Made by a program: the position numbers and the translations under genes. Shown here piece by piece: positions 2,323 through 8,991 of a stretch of DNA of 54,438 nucleotides. Below the pieces are notes generated by a model. It was not told where the DNA came from. It made no database searches and worked only from the letters and a program-made list of their open reading frames with translations. Source of the DNA: Granulosicoccus sp. (lineage in GTDB: Bacteria > Pseudomonadota > Gammaproteobacteria > Granulosicoccales > Granulosicoccaceae); contig JAHDGK010000034.1 of the NCBI GenBank assembly GCA_020627685.1, forward strand, positions 1 through 54,438. The letters are read 5' to 3'. Each line of letters begins with the position of its first letter. Within the stretch, counting starts at the first letter, position 1.

Positions 2323-4740
2323 TTAGTTAACCGGCATCCAAACCAGTGTTGCATCATCGACCGTGATATCCGTTTTTTCTAAACCGACGGTCATGCTTTC
2401 AATCTCAGATGCCTTGGCCGTCCATTCATCTTGAATTTCGTACAAGTCTTCACTGAGTTCATCTTCCAGAGCTTCTTTGTCTTCAACTAAAGAGTTGTAT
2501 CGATTCTCGGCTGTCTTTAAACGCTCTTCTGCTCTGGCTGCCATGCGCCCTTTGCTTTGGCTGCGTCGAATACCGCCTGTAAGAATGGATGTCGTACTTC
2601 TACGCCCACCGAGTAAACTGCCAAGAAGGCCGCCCGCGATATCCAGCACTTGACTGGTTCTCTGATCTTTCTTGCGGCTGGCTGCATCGAACTGAATCTC
2701 GCGCATCTTGTCTTCAGATTTTTCTATAGCTGCATTTATGCGATCTATCTTGCGAGACAAAACATCCCGTAGCTTGTTGGCGTCGGCATCCATCTTTTCC
2801 TCTGCAACCGTGTTACAACGCGCTTCAAATTCATCTCTGGTTTCACCCACGCGTGAGAAAACTTTTAGCTCACGGTTTATGAAGAGTTCCAGTTCCTGGC
2901 TTCGATACAAGTGATCTTTTACGGCAGTTTTTGCCGCATTGAAGTAGGTTTTATTCTTCAACTTGGCATCGGGAAGCACATAGATGGCCCCCTCAGGTTC
3001 TTGCTTTACCAAGTCTCTATCATCGAAGTCAACGATGATGGCATCGTCCGGATCAACAGGGCCATCTAACGGAGAAATAATGGCTTCCCACTCTGACTCA
3101 TGGCGCAGCTTGGCTTTCGTGTCATCGAAAAGCATATGCACTCGAACCGCTAAACCTGCGACAAGTTTTTTACCCTCGGCAGCTACACCCAGTTCGGAGG
3201 CGTAGGGCACCGATGGATCTAAGTACCGTACTCTGACATTGTCAGCAGTTTGCGGTGCAACGGCGCTTTCATTGTCTGCCAACGCGGCAGGAGCTGCAGC
3301 CGGTGCTGGCGATGTGCCATCTGCATTGGGAGCCGCAGTTGCAGCTTTCGCAACGCTTTCTGCCGCTTGTCTTGATTCGTCGGTAGTCAATCGTCCGATT
3401 TGATCCCGCGTTAGGGGGCCCGCTAAATAGGACATCGCCCAGCGTGTAGAAAATTTCTTCGGCGCTGAAGAGCGAGTGGAATGCAATACAAACTGCCGCT
3501 TATCCAGCGCTGAAATGGTATCTGCTACTGTTTTAAGATCGACGGACCCATCGGACGCACCCATGCCATCGAGCAGCCGTTGTTTATCACGATCAGTTTG
3601 TAGGCGGCCAATCATCCAGGTACCGGCATTGGAGATAGCTTTGTAATCTATATCAACCGGATTCTGTGTTGATAATACAAGACCGACACCGAACGCGCGA
3701 GCCTGCTTTAAAATGGTGAGGATTGGTTTCTTGGAGGGAGGAGACTCTACTGGCGGTACATATCCGAATACCTCGTCCATATAAATAAGCGCGCGTAAAT
3801 CACCTGTGCCCGGCTGTTTACGCATCCAAGTCACCATCTTGGACATAAGTAAGGTTACAACGAACTGTCGTTCTTCTTCGCTTAAGTGACCGAGTGAGAT
3901 GATAGCTGCCTGTGGTTTACTGCCGTCGCCGTACAACAGGCTTTGAATGTCCAGCTCAGGACCTTCACTCCAACTGGCAAATGAGGGCGATGCCGCCAGT
4001 CCGTTGAGCTTCATCGCAAGCTTGACGCGATCGGCTGGTGGAAAGAAGGTATCCAGATCGATAACACCGAGCTTTCGCATGGGCGGCTGTTGCACAAGAC
4101 CAATCAGCATGCCCAGATCAAGACTTTTACCTTGCGACCAGTACCAGTTAATGATGTTAGATAACAGTATGTGTTCTCGACTGCTCAGTGGGTCACCGCT
4201 GATGCCGACTAAGGCCAATAGTGACGAGGCAAAGCCTTCGATTTCATCTTGCAGTGTTTCCGCATCGGTACCGGCAGCCGGAGCATTTAAAGAGCCGATG
4301 ACATTTAACGGGATACCTGCTGTGGAGCCCGGTGTGTAGATGGAGAAATCAGCTGTGTCCCGCAGTTGCTGAATTCGTGATGCATCAATACCGGAACGTT
4401 CCAGCCCGGCTTTCCATTGACTGGCTTTATCGAAGGCGGCTTGCGCTACGTCGTCACCGGCCTCTGATTCGCTGATCCAGGGCATGAAATCTGTGGGCAA
4501 TAAATTGGGGAACGTGAGCATCAGATTGCCCATGTCGCCTTTCGGGTCAATGATAAGCGCAGGCACGCCGGATTGAAGGGCTTCTTCTAACAACACAACC
4601 CCAAGACCGGTCTTACCGGAGCCAGTCATACCGACGATAACGCCGTGGGTAGTAAGGTCTGATGCCTCCAGAAACAGGGGTTGCTGGCTCTCCGGTTCCG
4701 TTCCGAGGTAGAAATGTCCTGACGGCGTGTCTATACCCAT
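2323..4740 (-). CDS. HerA/DUF87-like P-loop ATPase with C-terminal coiled coil
   Basis: This is an 805-residue protein related to the HerA/FtsK-type ATPases (DUF87 group). Walker A is GMTGSGKT at residues 37-44 and Walker B is ALIYMDEVFGYVP near 317-329, followed by the sensor-like GLVLSTQNPVDID near 353-365. After an Ala/Pro-rich linker near 470-490 there is a second region. Its end, about 640-790, is highly charged and should form coiled coil (RLKTAENRYNSLVEDKEALE). HerA relatives act as hexameric DNA translocases or in NTP-dependent processing. No NurA nuclease or defence partner is adjacent, so its job is unclear. It is divergent from the voltage-sensor gene. Confidence 0.8.
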   Translation of the reverse strand: MGIDTPSGHFYLGTEPESQQPLFLEASDLTTHGVIVGMTGSGKTGLGVVLLEEALQSGVPALIIDPKGDMGNLMLTFPNLLPTDFMPWISESEAGDDVAQAAFDKASQWKAGLERSGIDASRIQQLRDTADFSIYTPGSTAGIPLNVIGSLNAPAAGTDAETLQDEIEGFASSLLALVGISGDPLSSREHILLSNIINWYWSQGKSLDLGMLIGLVQQPPMRKLGVIDLDTFFPPADRVKLAMKLNGLAASPSFASWSEGPELDIQSLLYGDGSKPQAAIISLGHLSEEERQFVVTLLMSKMVTWMRKQPGTGDLRALIYMDEVFGYVPPVESPPSKKPILTILKQARAFGVGLVLSTQNPVDIDYKAISNAGTWMIGRLQTDRDKQRLLDGMGASDGSVDLKTVADTISALDKRQFVLHSTRSSAPKKFSTRWAMSYLAGPLTRDQIGRLTTDESRQAAESVAKAATAAPNADGTSPAPAAAPAALADNESAVAPQTADNVRVRYLDPSVPYASELGVAAEGKKLVAGLAVRVHMLFDDTKAKLRHESEWEAIISPLDGPVDPDDAIIVDFDDRDLVKQEPEGAIYVLPDAKLKNKTYFNAAKTAVKDHLYRSQELELFINRELKVFSRVGETRDEFEARCNTVAEEKMDADANKLRDVLSRKIDRINAAIEKSEDKMREIQFDAASRKKDQRTSQVLDIAGGLLGSLLGGRRSTTSILTGGIRRSQSKGRMAARAEERLKTAENRYNSLVEDKEALEDELSEDLYEIQDEWTAKASEIESMTVGLEKTDITVDDATLVWMPVN

Positions 4741-4861: not shown

Positions 4862-5914
4862 ATGCGTACCGCGACCATTGAAACCAACACTGAAATGAGT
4901 CAGGAAACCGAAGACCAAACTAGAGCCAGTCAAATTGCCCCGGCCATGTTTGCGCTGTCTGTGCTGTTTGTTGTTTTACTGGCCTCGTTGATTGTTCTAC
5001 GTGTCGATATTCCACGGGTGGCCGAGTTGGCTGTTGTTGGTGGCACTGAGTCTGAAGCTGTCAGTGAGATCAGTGAAGATCTCGATCAGGTTGAAGCCTT
5101 GGTTCAAGAGAATGCGTTGGTACGCCAAGCAGGTCCCTGGGCGAGGGGAACAGCCTTCGTTCTGTTTATGCTTTGGCCATTATTCTGGTTGGAATATGCG
5201 TTTTCATTGCGACTTAACAGTGCTCAGCTGACAACGAAAACCGGCAAAATTTTCAGGATATTGGCGTGTATCGCGCCTCCTTTGAGGATGGCGACGCCGT
5301 CTGCCGCACATGGCGGGAAGATCTGGTTACCCAACTGGGGTTGGCGTCTACCAGGAAAAGCGTTGCACGCAAATTTGATGCGCGCATTCAGTAAGCCGAT
5401 GCTGATCATTGCGCTGCTCATTTTACCCGTGCTGCTTATAGAGTTCGGGCTTCAATCCTTGGTTGAGCAACATCAGTGGCTGCGGATTTTGTTGCATGCG
5501 TGCACAGGTTTCATCTGGTGCGCGTTCACCATCGAATTCATCATCATGATGAGCACAACCGACAAACGGTTTGCCTACGTTAAGAAAAACTGGATTGATC
5601 TGGCAATCATCCTTCTGCCCCTCATCTCGTTTTTACGCTCTATCAGGGTCTTGCGTCTGGCGCGTTTAGCCAAAGTCCAGAAGCTTGCGAAAATGGGCAG
5701 GGTATTTCGTATGCGTGGGCTTGCGATGAAAACCATGCGAGCGCTCATGCTATTCGGATTCATTAACCGCCTGTTGCGTATAACACCTGAAAAGCGGCTG
5801 AAGAAGCTGAAAGATCTGTACGAGGATCAGGCTGAGGAATTGGCCGATTTGCAGATGGAAATCAATGAGTTGGAAGAAAGCATTGCCCTCGAGCAGCACC
5901 CCGATCGGGCCTGA
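4862..5914 (+). CDS. Voltage-sensor-domain membrane protein without a pore, C-terminal coiled coil
   Basis: This protein has 350 residues from ATG 4862; a TTG at 4823 would add 13 and an ATG at 4895 would remove 11. Hydrophobic segments lie at about 28-47, 97-115, 180-198, 207-230 and 243-257. The last three, plus the next helix, read as S1-S4 of a voltage sensor: S2 has FTIEF, S3 has NWIDLAI, and S4 carries nine basic residues at every third position (259 to 283). No S5, pore loop or GYG-type filter follows. Instead an amphipathic stretch leads into a charged coiled coil at about 311-345. The layout resembles Hv1-type proton channels more than tetrameric K+ channels. Ion selectivity is unknown. 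Confidence 0.72.
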   Translation: MRTATIETNTEMSQETEDQTRASQIAPAMFALSVLFVVLLASLIVLRVDIPRVAELAVVGGTESEAVSEISEDLDQVEALVQENALVRQAGPWARGTAFVLFMLWPLFWLEYAFSLRLNSAQLTTKTGKIFRILACIAPPLRMATPSAAHGGKIWLPNWGWRLPGKALHANLMRAFSKPMLIIALLILPVLLIEFGLQSLVEQHQWLRILLHACTGFIWCAFTIEFIIMMSTTDKRFAYVKKNWIDLAIILLPLISFLRSIRVLRLARLAKVQKLAKMGRVFRMRGLAMKTMRALMLFGFINRLLRITPEKRLKKLKDLYEDQAEELADLQMEINELEESIALEQHPDRA

Positions 5915-6010: not shown

Positions 6011-6030
6011 ATTTCAGTAATTACTGAAAT
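6011..6030. promoter_or_regulatory. Perfect 20-bp palindrome, candidate GbsR/MarR operator
   Basis: ATTTCAGTAATTACTGAAAT is a perfect 20-bp palindrome whose right end is 23 bases before the ATG of the GbsR/MarR regulator at 6054. MarR-type dimers bind such symmetric sites. Its position fits autoregulation of the regulator and the downstream cytochrome bd genes. Assignment to this regulator is inference. Confidence 0.65.
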
Positions 6031-6053
6031 TACAGAAACAAGAGAAATTGACC

Positions 6054-6608
6054 ATGAAGCTATCGGCAACGCATCAGAAGTTTGTTATCCATTTTGGTGA
6101 GATGGGTGCCCGGTGGGGTATGAACCGGACAGTGGGGCAAATCTATGCGGTGCTGTTCCTGTCTGAGAATCCTCTTTGCGCCGATGACCTGGTGACGGCG
6201 TTAGGTGTCTCCCGATCGAATGTATCCATGGGTCTCAAGGAATTGCAGGCCTGGCAGTTGGTGCGGCTTCAGCATCAAGCCAACGATCGCCGTGATTTTT
6301 TCTCAACTCCCGGTGACCTGTGGGAAATCGTTCGCACCTTGGTCGATCAACGTAAAGCGCGTGAAATTGACCCGACGCTGACCATTCTGCGCGAACTGCA
6401 ACTTGAAGATGATTTCGAATCGAGTAGTGAATTTGCGCAAGAGCGAATTCAGAAAACCACCGAAATGATTGAGTTGCTAACGCAGTGGTACGACGAGATG
6501 CGAGTTGTCGATTCAAAGCGTTTGGAAAAGCTACTCAAGATGGGCGCGGCAGCTCAAAAAGTACTCGACTTCAAAGACAAAGTGACTGGCAAAGGGGGGA
6601 ATAGTTAA
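6054..6608 (+). CDS. GbsR/MarR family transcriptional regulator
   Basis: This is a 184-residue winged-helix protein. Residues about 10-100 hold the HTH (PLCADDLVTALGVSRSNVSMGLKELQAWQLV), followed by a DRRDFF wing and a helical, charged C-terminal half for dimerisation. This is the GbsR branch of the MarR superfamily. ATG 6054 is preferred over TTG 6048 because AAGAGA precedes it. Its stop overlaps the start of the oxidase subunit I gene (TAATG), so it is translationally coupled and probably controls that oxidase. No effector is evident. Confidence 0.88.
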   Translation: MKLSATHQKFVIHFGEMGARWGMNRTVGQIYAVLFLSENPLCADDLVTALGVSRSNVSMGLKELQAWQLVRLQHQANDRRDFFSTPGDLWEIVRTLVDQRKAREIDPTLTILRELQLEDDFESSSEFAQERIQKTTEMIELLTQWYDEMRVVDSKRLEKLLKMGAAAQKVLDFKDKVTGKGGNS

Positions 6609-7981
6609 TGGACGCTTTATTACTGGCCCGAATTCAATTCGCAGCCAATATCTCTTTTCATATCTTGTTTCCAACGATCACGATAGCGCTGGGATGGGTG
6701 CTGCTTTATTTTCGTCTGCAATCAAACCGAACCGGTGATGCAGGTTGGATGCAAGCGTATCGGTTTTGGGTAAAGGTGTTTGCCTTATCGTTTGGACTCG
6801 GTGTGGTATCCGGTATCACCATGAGTTTTCAGTTTGGCACTAACTGGCCTGGCTTTATGGAGAAGGTGGGAAACATTGCCGGTCCTTTATTAGGGTACGA
6901 AGTGCTCACAGCATTTTTCCTCGAGGCAGGCTTCCTGGGCATTATGTTGTTCGGCGCGACTCGGGTATCTACCAGAGTACATACCTTGGCTACGTTCCTG
7001 GTGGCATTCGGCACAACCTTGTCGGCGTTCTGGATACTGGTGCTAAATTCCTGGATGCACACACCGGTTGGTTTTGAAATGCGTGACGGCGTTGCGTTTG
7101 CAACAGATTGGATGGCCATCATATTCAACCCTTCAATGCCTTATCGTTTAGTACATACGTTAATTGCATCCGGTTTAACGGTGGCGTTTCTCTTAGCAGG
7201 CATCAGTGCTTTGCGTTGGTTGTGGAACGATAAGAGTCTGGGTATCAGAAAGTCTATGCGTACGGGTGTATACCTGGGAGCAGCGTTAATACCTGTGCAG
7301 ATCATCGTTGGCGATATGCACGGATTAAATACCTTGGAGCATCAGCCTGCAAAGGTTGCCGCTATGGAGGCTAACTGGGAGACGGGTCCTAACGTGCCTT
7401 TAGTGTTGTTTGCATTGCCCGATGAAGAGACGCGTCAAAACAACTTTGAAATTGCCATACCCGATGGGGCAAGCTGGATACTTAAACATTCAGCCGACGG
7501 GGTGGTTCCAGGCTTAAACGATTACGTTAGCGATGATGGAGCAATACTTCATCCGCCTGTGGCGCCGGTGTTCTTCGGTTTTAGAATCATGGTTGGCATT
7601 GGCATTCTGATGTTGCTTGTCAGCTGGAAAGTGGCTTATACGCTGTACAAGAAGGGTGAACCCTCTCGCTGGGAAGCCTACGTTTTGGTGGGAACAACGT
7701 TCTCCGGTTGGGTTGCAACACTTGCGGGTTGGTATGTCACCGAGATAGGGCGGCAACCGTGGATTGTAACGGGCATTGTCGACACTGCCAGTGCCGCATC
7801 AACACATCCGGTTCCTATCCTGGGGCTGTCGCTTGCAACTTACCTGACCATCTATGTCGCGTTGCTGGCAGCCTACATAGGAACGCTATGGCATTTAGCT
7901 AAAACGGCAGCTAACTCTGATGAAGCGAAGGAGCTGGATGCAGGTCAATTTAAAGGCGCTGTAGCGAGGGCGTTGTCATGA
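6608..7981 (+). CDS. cydA: Cytochrome bd ubiquinol oxidase subunit I (cyanide-insensitive type)
   Basis: This is the 457-residue integral membrane subunit that oxidises quinol and carries hemes b558, b595 and d. The key residues are visible: His18 (NISFHILFP), Glu98 and Glu106 in the third helix region, His183 (YRLVHTL) and Met328 (FRIMVG) as b558 ligands, Lys249 and Glu254 in the Q loop, and the GRQPW motif. The Q loop is short, as in the CIO branch, so cioA is an alternative name. It starts in the stop codon of the GbsR gene and overlaps subunit II by ATGA. The enzyme allows respiration at low oxygen or with heme-copper oxidases inhibited. Confidence 0.95.
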   Translation: MDALLLARIQFAANISFHILFPTITIALGWVLLYFRLQSNRTGDAGWMQAYRFWVKVFALSFGLGVVSGITMSFQFGTNWPGFMEKVGNIAGPLLGYEVLTAFFLEAGFLGIMLFGATRVSTRVHTLATFLVAFGTTLSAFWILVLNSWMHTPVGFEMRDGVAFATDWMAIIFNPSMPYRLVHTLIASGLTVAFLLAGISALRWLWNDKSLGIRKSMRTGVYLGAALIPVQIIVGDMHGLNTLEHQPAKVAAMEANWETGPNVPLVLFALPDEETRQNNFEIAIPDGASWILKHSADGVVPGLNDYVSDDGAILHPPVAPVFFGFRIMVGIGILMLLVSWKVAYTLYKKGEPSRWEAYVLVGTTFSGWVATLAGWYVTEIGRQPWIVTGIVDTASAASTHPVPILGLSLATYLTIYVALLAAYIGTLWHLAKTAANSDEAKELDAGQFKGAVARALS

Positions 7982-8991
7982 ACGTAACTGAACTTCCTAT
8001 CCATGATTGGTTGCCCATTGTATTTTTGGGTTTAATGGGGCTGTCAGCACTGATCTATGTCGTGCTCGATGGCTTTGATCTCGGTGTTGGACTGCTGTCT
8101 CCATTGTCCAAGTCTGAGAGTGATAAAAATCTTATGATCGGTTCAATAGGGCCTTTCTGGGATGCTAACGAAACATGGTTGGTTCTGGCCGTTGGCATAC
8201 TCTTGGTAGCTTTCCCGTTGGCTCACGGAGCCATACTGGGTGCACTGTATCTGCCTACGATGTTTATGTTGGTGGGTCTAACGCTGCGGGGAGTGGCCTT
8301 TGAGTTTCGTGCAAAAGGGCCGGCACACCAAAAGCAATTATGGAACCGAGCATTCTTTGCAGGCTCTTTGTTGGCCACTGTGTCGCAGGGCTATATGTTG
8401 GGTAAGTATGTTATCGGTCTTCAAACCGGTTTGTACGCGGTGTTGTTTGCATCACTAGTTGCTGTTTGTTTAACCGCATCGTATGGCTTGGTGGGAGCTT
8501 GTTGGTTAATCGCGAAAACTGAAAACGCATTGCAAAAACAGGCGGTAGAGTGGGCTAGAAAATTGTTAATAGGTACGGCAATGGGAATGTTAGCGTTGTC
8601 GGTTGCAACGCCATGGGTTAGCCCGCGTGTGTTTGACGCTTGGTTCAGTTTCCCTAACATTATCGGTTTAGCACCGATACCCTTGGTGTCAGTTGCGTTG
8701 GTGATAGGTTTACACGTTATTCTAAAGAGCCTGCCGAATGCCGATGACAAATACCGCTGGGCGCCCTTTGCGATGACGGTAGCTTTGTTCATCCTCGCTT
8801 TCTCAGGACTGGCGTATAGCTTCTTCCCGTACGTCGTGCCGGAGCAATATACCGTGTGGGATGCAGCGGCAGCTAGGGAATCGTTAACCATCATTCTAGC
8901 AGGCACGCTGGTAACCTTGCCCATGATCGTGGCGTATTCTGTTTTCGCTTATAAGGTATTTAGTGGTAAAGCTACACCGCTAACTTACTAG
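7978..8991 (+). CDS. cydB: Cytochrome bd ubiquinol oxidase subunit II
   Basis: This is a 337-residue membrane protein with about eight or nine helices. DGFDLGVGLLSP near residue 30 and GPFWDANETWLVL near 60 are the family signatures. The start overlaps the subunit I stop by 4 bases. No CydX-like small subunit or cydCD assembly genes follow, in line with the CIO subtype. Its last 20 bases overlap the 3' end of the convergent amine oxidase gene, so no separate terminator fits between them. Confidence 0.95.
   Translation: MNVTELPIHDWLPIVFLGLMGLSALIYVVLDGFDLGVGLLSPLSKSESDKNLMIGSIGPFWDANETWLVLAVGILLVAFPLAHGAILGALYLPTMFMLVGLTLRGVAFEFRAKGPAHQKQLWNRAFFAGSLLATVSQGYMLGKYVIGLQTGLYAVLFASLVAVCLTASYGLVGACWLIAKTENALQKQAVEWARKLLIGTAMGMLALSVATPWVSPRVFDAWFSFPNIIGLAPIPLVSVALVIGLHVILKSLPNADDKYRWAPFAMTVALFILAFSGLAYSFFPYVVPEQYTVWDAAAARESLTIILAGTLVTLPMIVAYSVFAYKVFSGKATPLTY

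Follow-up and report, generated by a model that had tools for sequence, protein, structure and literature searches.

Pore-less voltage-sensor proteins with a probable new architecture in three bacterial phyla

The window analysed in this study, a stretch of 54,438 nucleotides from a Granulosicoccus genome, encodes a member of a real, conserved, scattered and largely unannotated protein family with a probable new architecture. Residues 166–285 of the protein are established by sequence as one complete voltage-sensor domain (VSD), its charge-transfer centre canonical and its S4 basic. No pore follows this domain, a coiled coil is predicted at the C-terminus, and the front half most probably represents a degenerate copy of the same domain, comprising S1', S2' and an S3' stub that ends in PPLR, with no S4'. 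The original prediction of an 'Hv1-like' pore-less sensor with a coiled coil in a bacterium was upheld and could be widened to a family of three phyla, the likeness to Hv1 being one of layout only.

In a 2023 review, the known prokaryotic voltage-sensing domains are all said to be accompanied by a pore domain, and the origin of Hv channels is placed in an early eukaryote (PMC10377628). The former statement is contradicted by the conserved pore-less family described here, which is present in three bacterial phyla. Among the titles and abstract openings listed in a literature search, most subscription journals lying outside its reach, none describes a pore-less bacterial sensor. The family adds a second line of sensors that have become independent of a pore. 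If it does sense voltage, it would be a small bacterial protein with which cells could read their membrane potential directly, as well as a new tool for isolated-sensor studies. The repeat, having lost its S4, would offer a natural experiment on what the remaining helices do alone.

Results

The gene and its product

The gene is an open frame of the plus strand with a single match in its own genome. Its features are listed below; residues are numbered from the ATG at 4862, and residue counts here and throughout refer to 43 aligned members of the family.

4862–5914, + strand: complete coding region for the pore-less sensor, 350 residues; an alternative start at ATG 4895 is possible
4934–5005, + strand: first N-terminal membrane helix, residues 25–48, proposed S1' (hydropathy; hhalign to S1)
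5135–5215, + strand: second N-terminal membrane helix, residues 92–118, proposed S2' (Trp105-x-x-Phe108-x-x-Glu111 at 5174–5194; hhalign)
5237–5293, + strand: short helix and 'LACIAPPLR', residues 126–144, proposed S3a' stub without S4' (hhalign to S3; AF2 helices 126–137 and 139–144)
5318–5347, + strand: short beta hairpin region between the halves, residues 153–162, presumably cytosolic (AF2 strands 153–156 and 160–162; conserved Trp)
5396–5452, + strand: S1, residues 179–197, with Pro189 (43/43) and Glu194 (acidic in 41/43); no acid at 178–193 in any of the 43
5474–5557, + strand: S2, residues 205–232, charge-transfer motif Phe222-x-x-Glu225 (Trp219, Phe222 and Glu225 in 43/43; structural matches)
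5591–5629, + strand: S3, residues 244–256, with Asp246 (D 39, E 3, N 1) and Pro253 (43/43)
5636–5716, + strand: S4, residues 259–285, nine basic residues in a three-residue register
5723–5776, + strand: amphipathic helix after S4, residues 288–305, too short and polar for S5 (AF2 helix 284–304)
5786–5896, + strand: predicted C-terminal coiled coil, residues 309–345 (heptad count, PDB coiled-coil matches, predicted helix 309–345)

The closest relative, L001, is 71% identical to the window protein and starts at the codon equivalent to Met12, immediately after an in-frame stop; the true start may therefore be ATG 4895. The residue numbers originally assigned hold under ATG 4862 and would each fall by 11 if ATG 4895 were the start. 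An NCBIfam search of the window protein returned no significant family, and promoter and terminator scans gave nothing above shuffled sequence.

The voltage sensor

The S4 helix was predicted to carry nine basic residues at strict three-residue spacing, and this was confirmed (Arg259, 262, 265 and 268, Lys271, 274 and 277, Arg280 and 283). Within residues 259–285, basic residues occupy all 9 in-register positions compared with 1 of the 18 off-register positions (Arg285). The chance that nine random basic residues over 27 positions would all fall in this register is 2e-7, or about 2e-6 by hand calculation with Arg285 included. The counter-charges proposed for S2 and S3 were also found to be a family trait, with Glu225 present in every aligned member and position 246 acidic in 42 of 43. 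The Phe-x-x-Glu of S2 and the Asp of S3 are the classical charge-transfer residues. Pro139, Trp155, Pro189, Trp219, Phe222, Glu225 and Pro253 are all invariant.

Conservation varies along S4. Position 259 is R in 41 members, K in one and Q in one, and position 262 is R in 36, K in 2, Q in 3, T in one and a gap in one. The middle positions are variable, while the inner positions 280, 283 and 285 are basic in 41, 42 and 43 members, respectively. The outer pair is Gln/Gln in L061, Lys/Thr in L057 and Arg/Gln in L024 and L053, and the sensor may be weakened in these members with lost or reduced outer charges. The stretch from Pro253 to Arg285 measures 24, 27, 30, 33 or 36 residues in the 38 of 43 members that preserve the S4 register. 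On the tree at least ten changes of S4 length are needed, of which at least four shift the register, against two thirds expected by chance (about p 0.08, by hand); a preference for S4 lengths in multiples of three is only suggestive.

The VSD half aligns with the sensors of ordinary 6TM channels, with hhalign values of 99.4% and 99.3% in two comparisons; a reversed 6TM-sensor profile still gave 28.7%, its score being 27.0 against 121 for the real profile. Searched against PDB sequences, the VSD profile found two weak matches only, one to a bacterial Na+ channel sensor (E 0.16) and one to that of Kv2.1 (E 2.4).

The acidic S1 selectivity residue of Hv channels is Asp112 in human Hv1. According to PMC10377628, Hv channels are recognised by this acidic residue and by the S4 motif RxWRxxR. 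None of the 43 members has an acid at 178–193, the span that presumably holds the Hv1 position, and none has a Trp within residues 255–285. Glu194, the sole S1 acid, lines up with the outer acid in S1 of ordinary 6TM channels, L026 among them. With neither mark found, membership of the Hv1 family is unsupported.

Absence of a pore and the C-terminal region

Several observations uphold the claim that no S5-pore-S6 follows S4. Only 65 residues lie C-terminal of Arg285, and the Pfam Ion_trans match to the window protein (residues 182–301; 25.7 bits, the cut-off being 25) runs from profile position 8 to position 135 of 241. Comparison of the VSD half, taken to residue 300, with the pores of 6TM channels gave 0.3% in hhalign, and no 19-residue hydropathy peak above 1.2 occurs past residue 267. 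A pore, which would speak against the proposed layout, was looked for in the aligned members and not found. The single regex match to a pore motif, TVGF in L014, sits in the helix after S4 and was rejected. No Pfam phosphatase match follows S4 in the window protein.

The C-terminal coiled coil held up as a prediction. Hydrophobic residues fill 8 of 11 a/d positions of the tail (309–345) in the best heptad register, and the family tail profile matches coiled coils in solved structures (best E 0.02 in the PDB search). The one match named 'Ion channel', PDB entry 3wkv, is an Hv1 chimera and was matched over the coiled-coil part only (E 5.4).

The N-terminal half

Hydropathy peaks at 28–46 and 98–116 bear out the two extra helices that were proposed to precede the sensor. 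Their presence thus stands, and what had been missed is that they probably form a degenerate S1-S2(-S3) repeat. Residues 20–164 align with residues 165–300 across S1-S2-S3 (hhalign 92.4%, score 41.1), and when the halves were realigned separately the internal-repeat probability was 92.2%. Column shuffles in windows of 4, 8 and 16 reached maximum scores of 32.0, 25.1 and 24.0 (100 trials each), the best shuffle still attaining a probability of 73%. Reversed profiles scored 10.2 and 10.8, and 12 unrelated membrane families, drawn from gene neighbourhoods and shallow at 2 to 8 members each, scored at most 16.3. Against the sensors of 6TM channels the N-terminal half gave 82% in hhalign, compared with 0.4% against their pores.

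The spacing of Trp105-x-x-Phe108-x-x-Glu111 is identical to that of Trp219-x-x-Phe222-x-x-Glu225. An aromatic residue occupies position 105 in 42 of 43 members (W 28, Y 12, F 2, L 1) and position 108 in all (F 34, Y 9), and position 111 is acidic in all (E 37, D 6). The query lacks an Asp at the aligned place in S3' and has no S4', so the front half is not expected to sense voltage. Conserved residues of the linker include Pro139 and Trp155 (both 43/43), Arg142 (39/43) and Trp161 (41/43).

In the search of PDB with the whole-family profile, the N-terminal half aligned to the opening helices of BH1501, a bacterial Na+ channel (6vwx, E 0.057); this region is S1-S2 of NaChBac. Searched alone, it gave no sensor among its four matches, the best being the membrane hairpin of ArcB (E 0.12).

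Structure models

The full-length AF2 model has a mean pLDDT of 72.5 and a pTM of 0.64, and the VSD half modelled alone a mean pLDDT of 73.7 and a pTM of 0.46, from shallow alignments of 10 and 11 rows. In both, S4 is poorly predicted (block pLDDT about 44–65) and drawn as a single continuous helix with S3, so the models do not confirm the S3-S4 hairpin. In the 6TM channel L010, 12 residues separate the Asp from the first Arg, compared with 13 in the window protein; since L010 must fold back to reach S5, the continuous helix is read as a limit of the shallow alignment.

A re-examination of the 110 best Foldseek chains for the VSD-half model listed 50 structural matches, all of them sensor-bearing entries (48 channels and 2 SLC9C1), with Z of 7.4–9.3 over 84–105 residues and rmsd of 2.1–4.6; such middling Z values can reflect merely a common helical arrangement. 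These matches span S1-S3 and the first turns of S4, ending by about residue 269. The six best matches of the full-length model are sensors, including 8f0p (Z 8.6), NavAb and its chimera, KCNQ1 and SLC9C1, and below them sensors are mixed with unrelated helical proteins. Foldseek itself gave no match at E ≤0.001 for either model, and its whole-protein list is headed by ABC transporters and other helical proteins. Hv1 structures are absent among the matches listed for either model, which says nothing by itself. In the monomer models S1-S3 match known sensors, and S4 stays at low confidence with no hairpin drawn.

Distribution and selection

Forty-six distinct pore-less relatives were read across three phyla, and 45 of them share the added N-terminal part. 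Relatives occur in Granulosicoccaceae, among Planctomycetota (Mariniblastus, Pirellulaceae) and among Bacteroidota (Cyclobacterium, Flammeovirgaceae). The gene is patchy, occurring in 11 of 27 genomes of the same genus (own included), and a strong match was obtained in 2 of 9 genomes of the same family outside the genus, with a third (G034) weak and unclassified. Fourteen of the 274 genomes sampled from the class gave a match; those of the own genome, L023, L024 and L025 are of the family type and the other ten (L026–L035) are pore-bearing 6TM channels. In the own phylum there were four matches among 349 genomes, namely the own gene, L066, L067 and the 6TM channel L068. The phylum of the Cyclobacterium genome gave matches in 2 of 345 genomes and that of the Pirellulaceae genome in 24 of 343, that genome included in each case. 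Among these 24, 22 show the full layout (one with an internal stop), L063 is a shorter pore-less protein and L064 bears a pore. Viral contigs yielded 35 pattern matches, none of them a relative, and spread by viruses is not supported.

Left out before the 43 members were counted were nine repeat loci (L012, L015, L018, L036–L040 and L065), L062 as a near copy of L061, L045 with its in-frame stop, and L063, which lacks the N-terminal pair; the matches G030 (strong) and G034 (E 5e-4) are not part of the family set. Pfam Ion_trans at E 0.01 recognises only 12 of the 43. The shorter L063 (1384–2181), from the Planctomycetota sample, also has a reduced S4 and no Pfam match at E 0.001.

The family is under purifying selection. 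Eleven pairs were compared, seven of which are saturated at synonymous sites, and the four unsaturated pairs, all from the Planctomycetota sample, gave dN/dS of 0.06–0.20. The window protein and L001 form a saturated pair (pN 0.18, pS 0.82).

Three members from Planctomycetota (L003, L005 and L042) are 43–49% identical to the query, compared with 28–36% for the other aligned members of that sample, and their stretch from Pro253 to Arg285 has 36 residues against 33. Their similarity hints at gene transfer between phyla, their position in the tree not being resolved.

Genomic setting

On one side of the gene is a HerA-like ATPase, encoded on the opposite strand, and on the other a MarR-type regulator and then cydAB. 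Of the stretches that were compared, L001 alone shares the regulator-cydAB run. No neighbour gene was found to be conserved across lineages in the 30 stretches compared, in two of which (L079 and L088) the family gene itself went unmarked; sharing was seen only between close relatives.

The HerA-like ATPase (2323–4740, minus strand, 805 residues) has Pfam HerA domain matches, and the named HerA/TraD families were matched far below their curated cut-offs. On the other side, a MarR/GbsR-like regulator stands directly before subunits I and II of a cytochrome bd oxidase (6048–8991). Just upstream of the regulator and cydAB is a perfect 18-base palindrome, TTTCAGTAATTACTGAAA (6012–6029), which is likely to be an operator; shuffling the window 100 times produced no match. 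Its inner 16 bases recur exactly in 3 of 94 loci, all of the own genome, and are missing from L001.

Elsewhere in the genome (G000), L093 (contig C91, 1501–2295) codes for a voltage-gated Na+ channel of the BacNav type, whose filter reads TLESWS. A match at E 1e-30 is present in 19 of the 27 genomes of the genus, own included. The locus L090 (contig C104) holds a frame of 376 residues in which a K+-channel-like filter, TTTGYGD, lies within an apparent split solute-binding domain; it resembles the GluR0 type of glutamate-receptor channel.

Discussion

The preferred reading, to which we give slightly less than even chances, is that the protein is a stand-alone membrane-potential sensor with a degenerate front copy, resembling TMEM266 or the sensor of a VSP and not Hv1. 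A TMEM266-like sensor is favoured because the layout matches that of TMEM266 and because the S4 Trp and the acid at S1 178–193 are missing. The coiled coil would pair two chains, and upon a change in membrane potential S4 would slide past Phe222. By pulling on the amphipathic helix and the coiled coil, S4 would then signal the voltage to the cytoplasm or to some partner whose gene is not adjacent, while the S4-less front half would act as a structural partner of the sensor, occupying the place that the pore domain has in channels. The broader proposal, that bacteria of at least three phyla possess a class of stand-alone voltage sensors that are dimers, have per chain one working VSD and one S4-less pseudo-sensor arisen by duplication, and report without a pore, is a little less probable still.

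Among the alternatives, a scaffold, or a sensor of lipid, pH or osmotic stress built on the inherited sensor fold, is unlikely but has to be taken seriously. Its S4 charges would anchor or orient the helix and be immobile in the field, as suggested by the loss or reduction of outer charges in some members, the variable middle ones and the better kept inner ones at 280, 283 and 285. The two conserved Trp of the linker and the PPLR motif suggest another function too. However, the invariant Phe222 and Glu225 and the nearly always acidic position 246 would be needless for a pure anchor, and Arg259, the outermost S4 charge, is R in all but two members. A voltage-gated or leaky pathway for protons or cations through the sensor, as in Hv1 or the isolated Shaker sensor, appears improbable. 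The pore-less VSD does carry a predicted C-terminal coiled coil, and the isolated Shaker VSD cut after S4 was reported to conduct (PMC12332018 and PMC13095418). Against such a pathway are the lack of the S1 acid (at 178–193) and S4 Trp in the whole set, the alignment of the outer acid Glu194 with that of ordinary channels, and nine S4 charges compared with three in Hv1 (PMC10377628). Ci-VSP, which is without the same two marks, shows gating currents and no typical proton-selective current according to that review (PMC10377628).

Less probable again is that the protein serves as an accessory voltage-sensing subunit for some channel or transporter whose gene lies elsewhere in the genome, for example the Na+ channel L093. 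The genome does encode this BacNav-type channel, and with no conserved partner adjacent, a partner would have to lie elsewhere. The two genes show no linked occurrence: within the genus, BacNav is present in 8 of the 11 genomes that carry the gene and in 11 of the 16 that lack it, several of these genomes being incomplete, and the pairing with BacNav was rejected. It is scarcely credible that the protein is an annotation artefact, or a 6TM channel that was truncated or has decayed. Its VSD half does show a clear relationship to 6TM channels, and L045, one of the 46 relatives, has an in-frame stop; nevertheless, so many pore-less relatives in three phyla, all but one with the same N-terminal addition, and the low dN/dS of the unsaturated pairs speak strongly against this reading, and a broken channel was rejected.

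Comparison with known systems

The stand-alone sensor proposed here shares with Hv1 the pore-less sensor, a C-terminal coiled coil, here a predicted one, and the Phe at the charge-transfer centre (PMC10377628). It differs from Hv1 in its number of S4 charges, given above, and in its two extra N-terminal helices.

Human TMEM266 is reported to be a voltage sensor and not a proton channel (PMC6392501). The likeness to it is again one of layout, namely S1-S4 without a pore and a C-terminal coiled coil, which pairs the chains in TMEM266 (PMC6392501). The nearest relative of TMEM266 is said there to be Hv1, whereas the relatives found for the window family are bacterial 6TM channels, and the N-terminal half-repeat is a further difference. 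With Ci-VSP the window protein has in common a pore-less sensor that lacks the S1 acid and S4 Trp of Hv1 (PMC10377628 and PMC12332018). Unlike Ci-VSP, it has no enzyme domain in the 65 residues after Arg285.

The bacterial Ion_trans 6TM channels (L010, L026–L035 and L068) share the S2-S3 signature, the basic S4 and a sensor profile match of 99%. These channels possess S5-pore-S6 with a TVGYGD-type or variant filter, whereas the window family is pore-less and has an added N-terminal half-repeat and linker.
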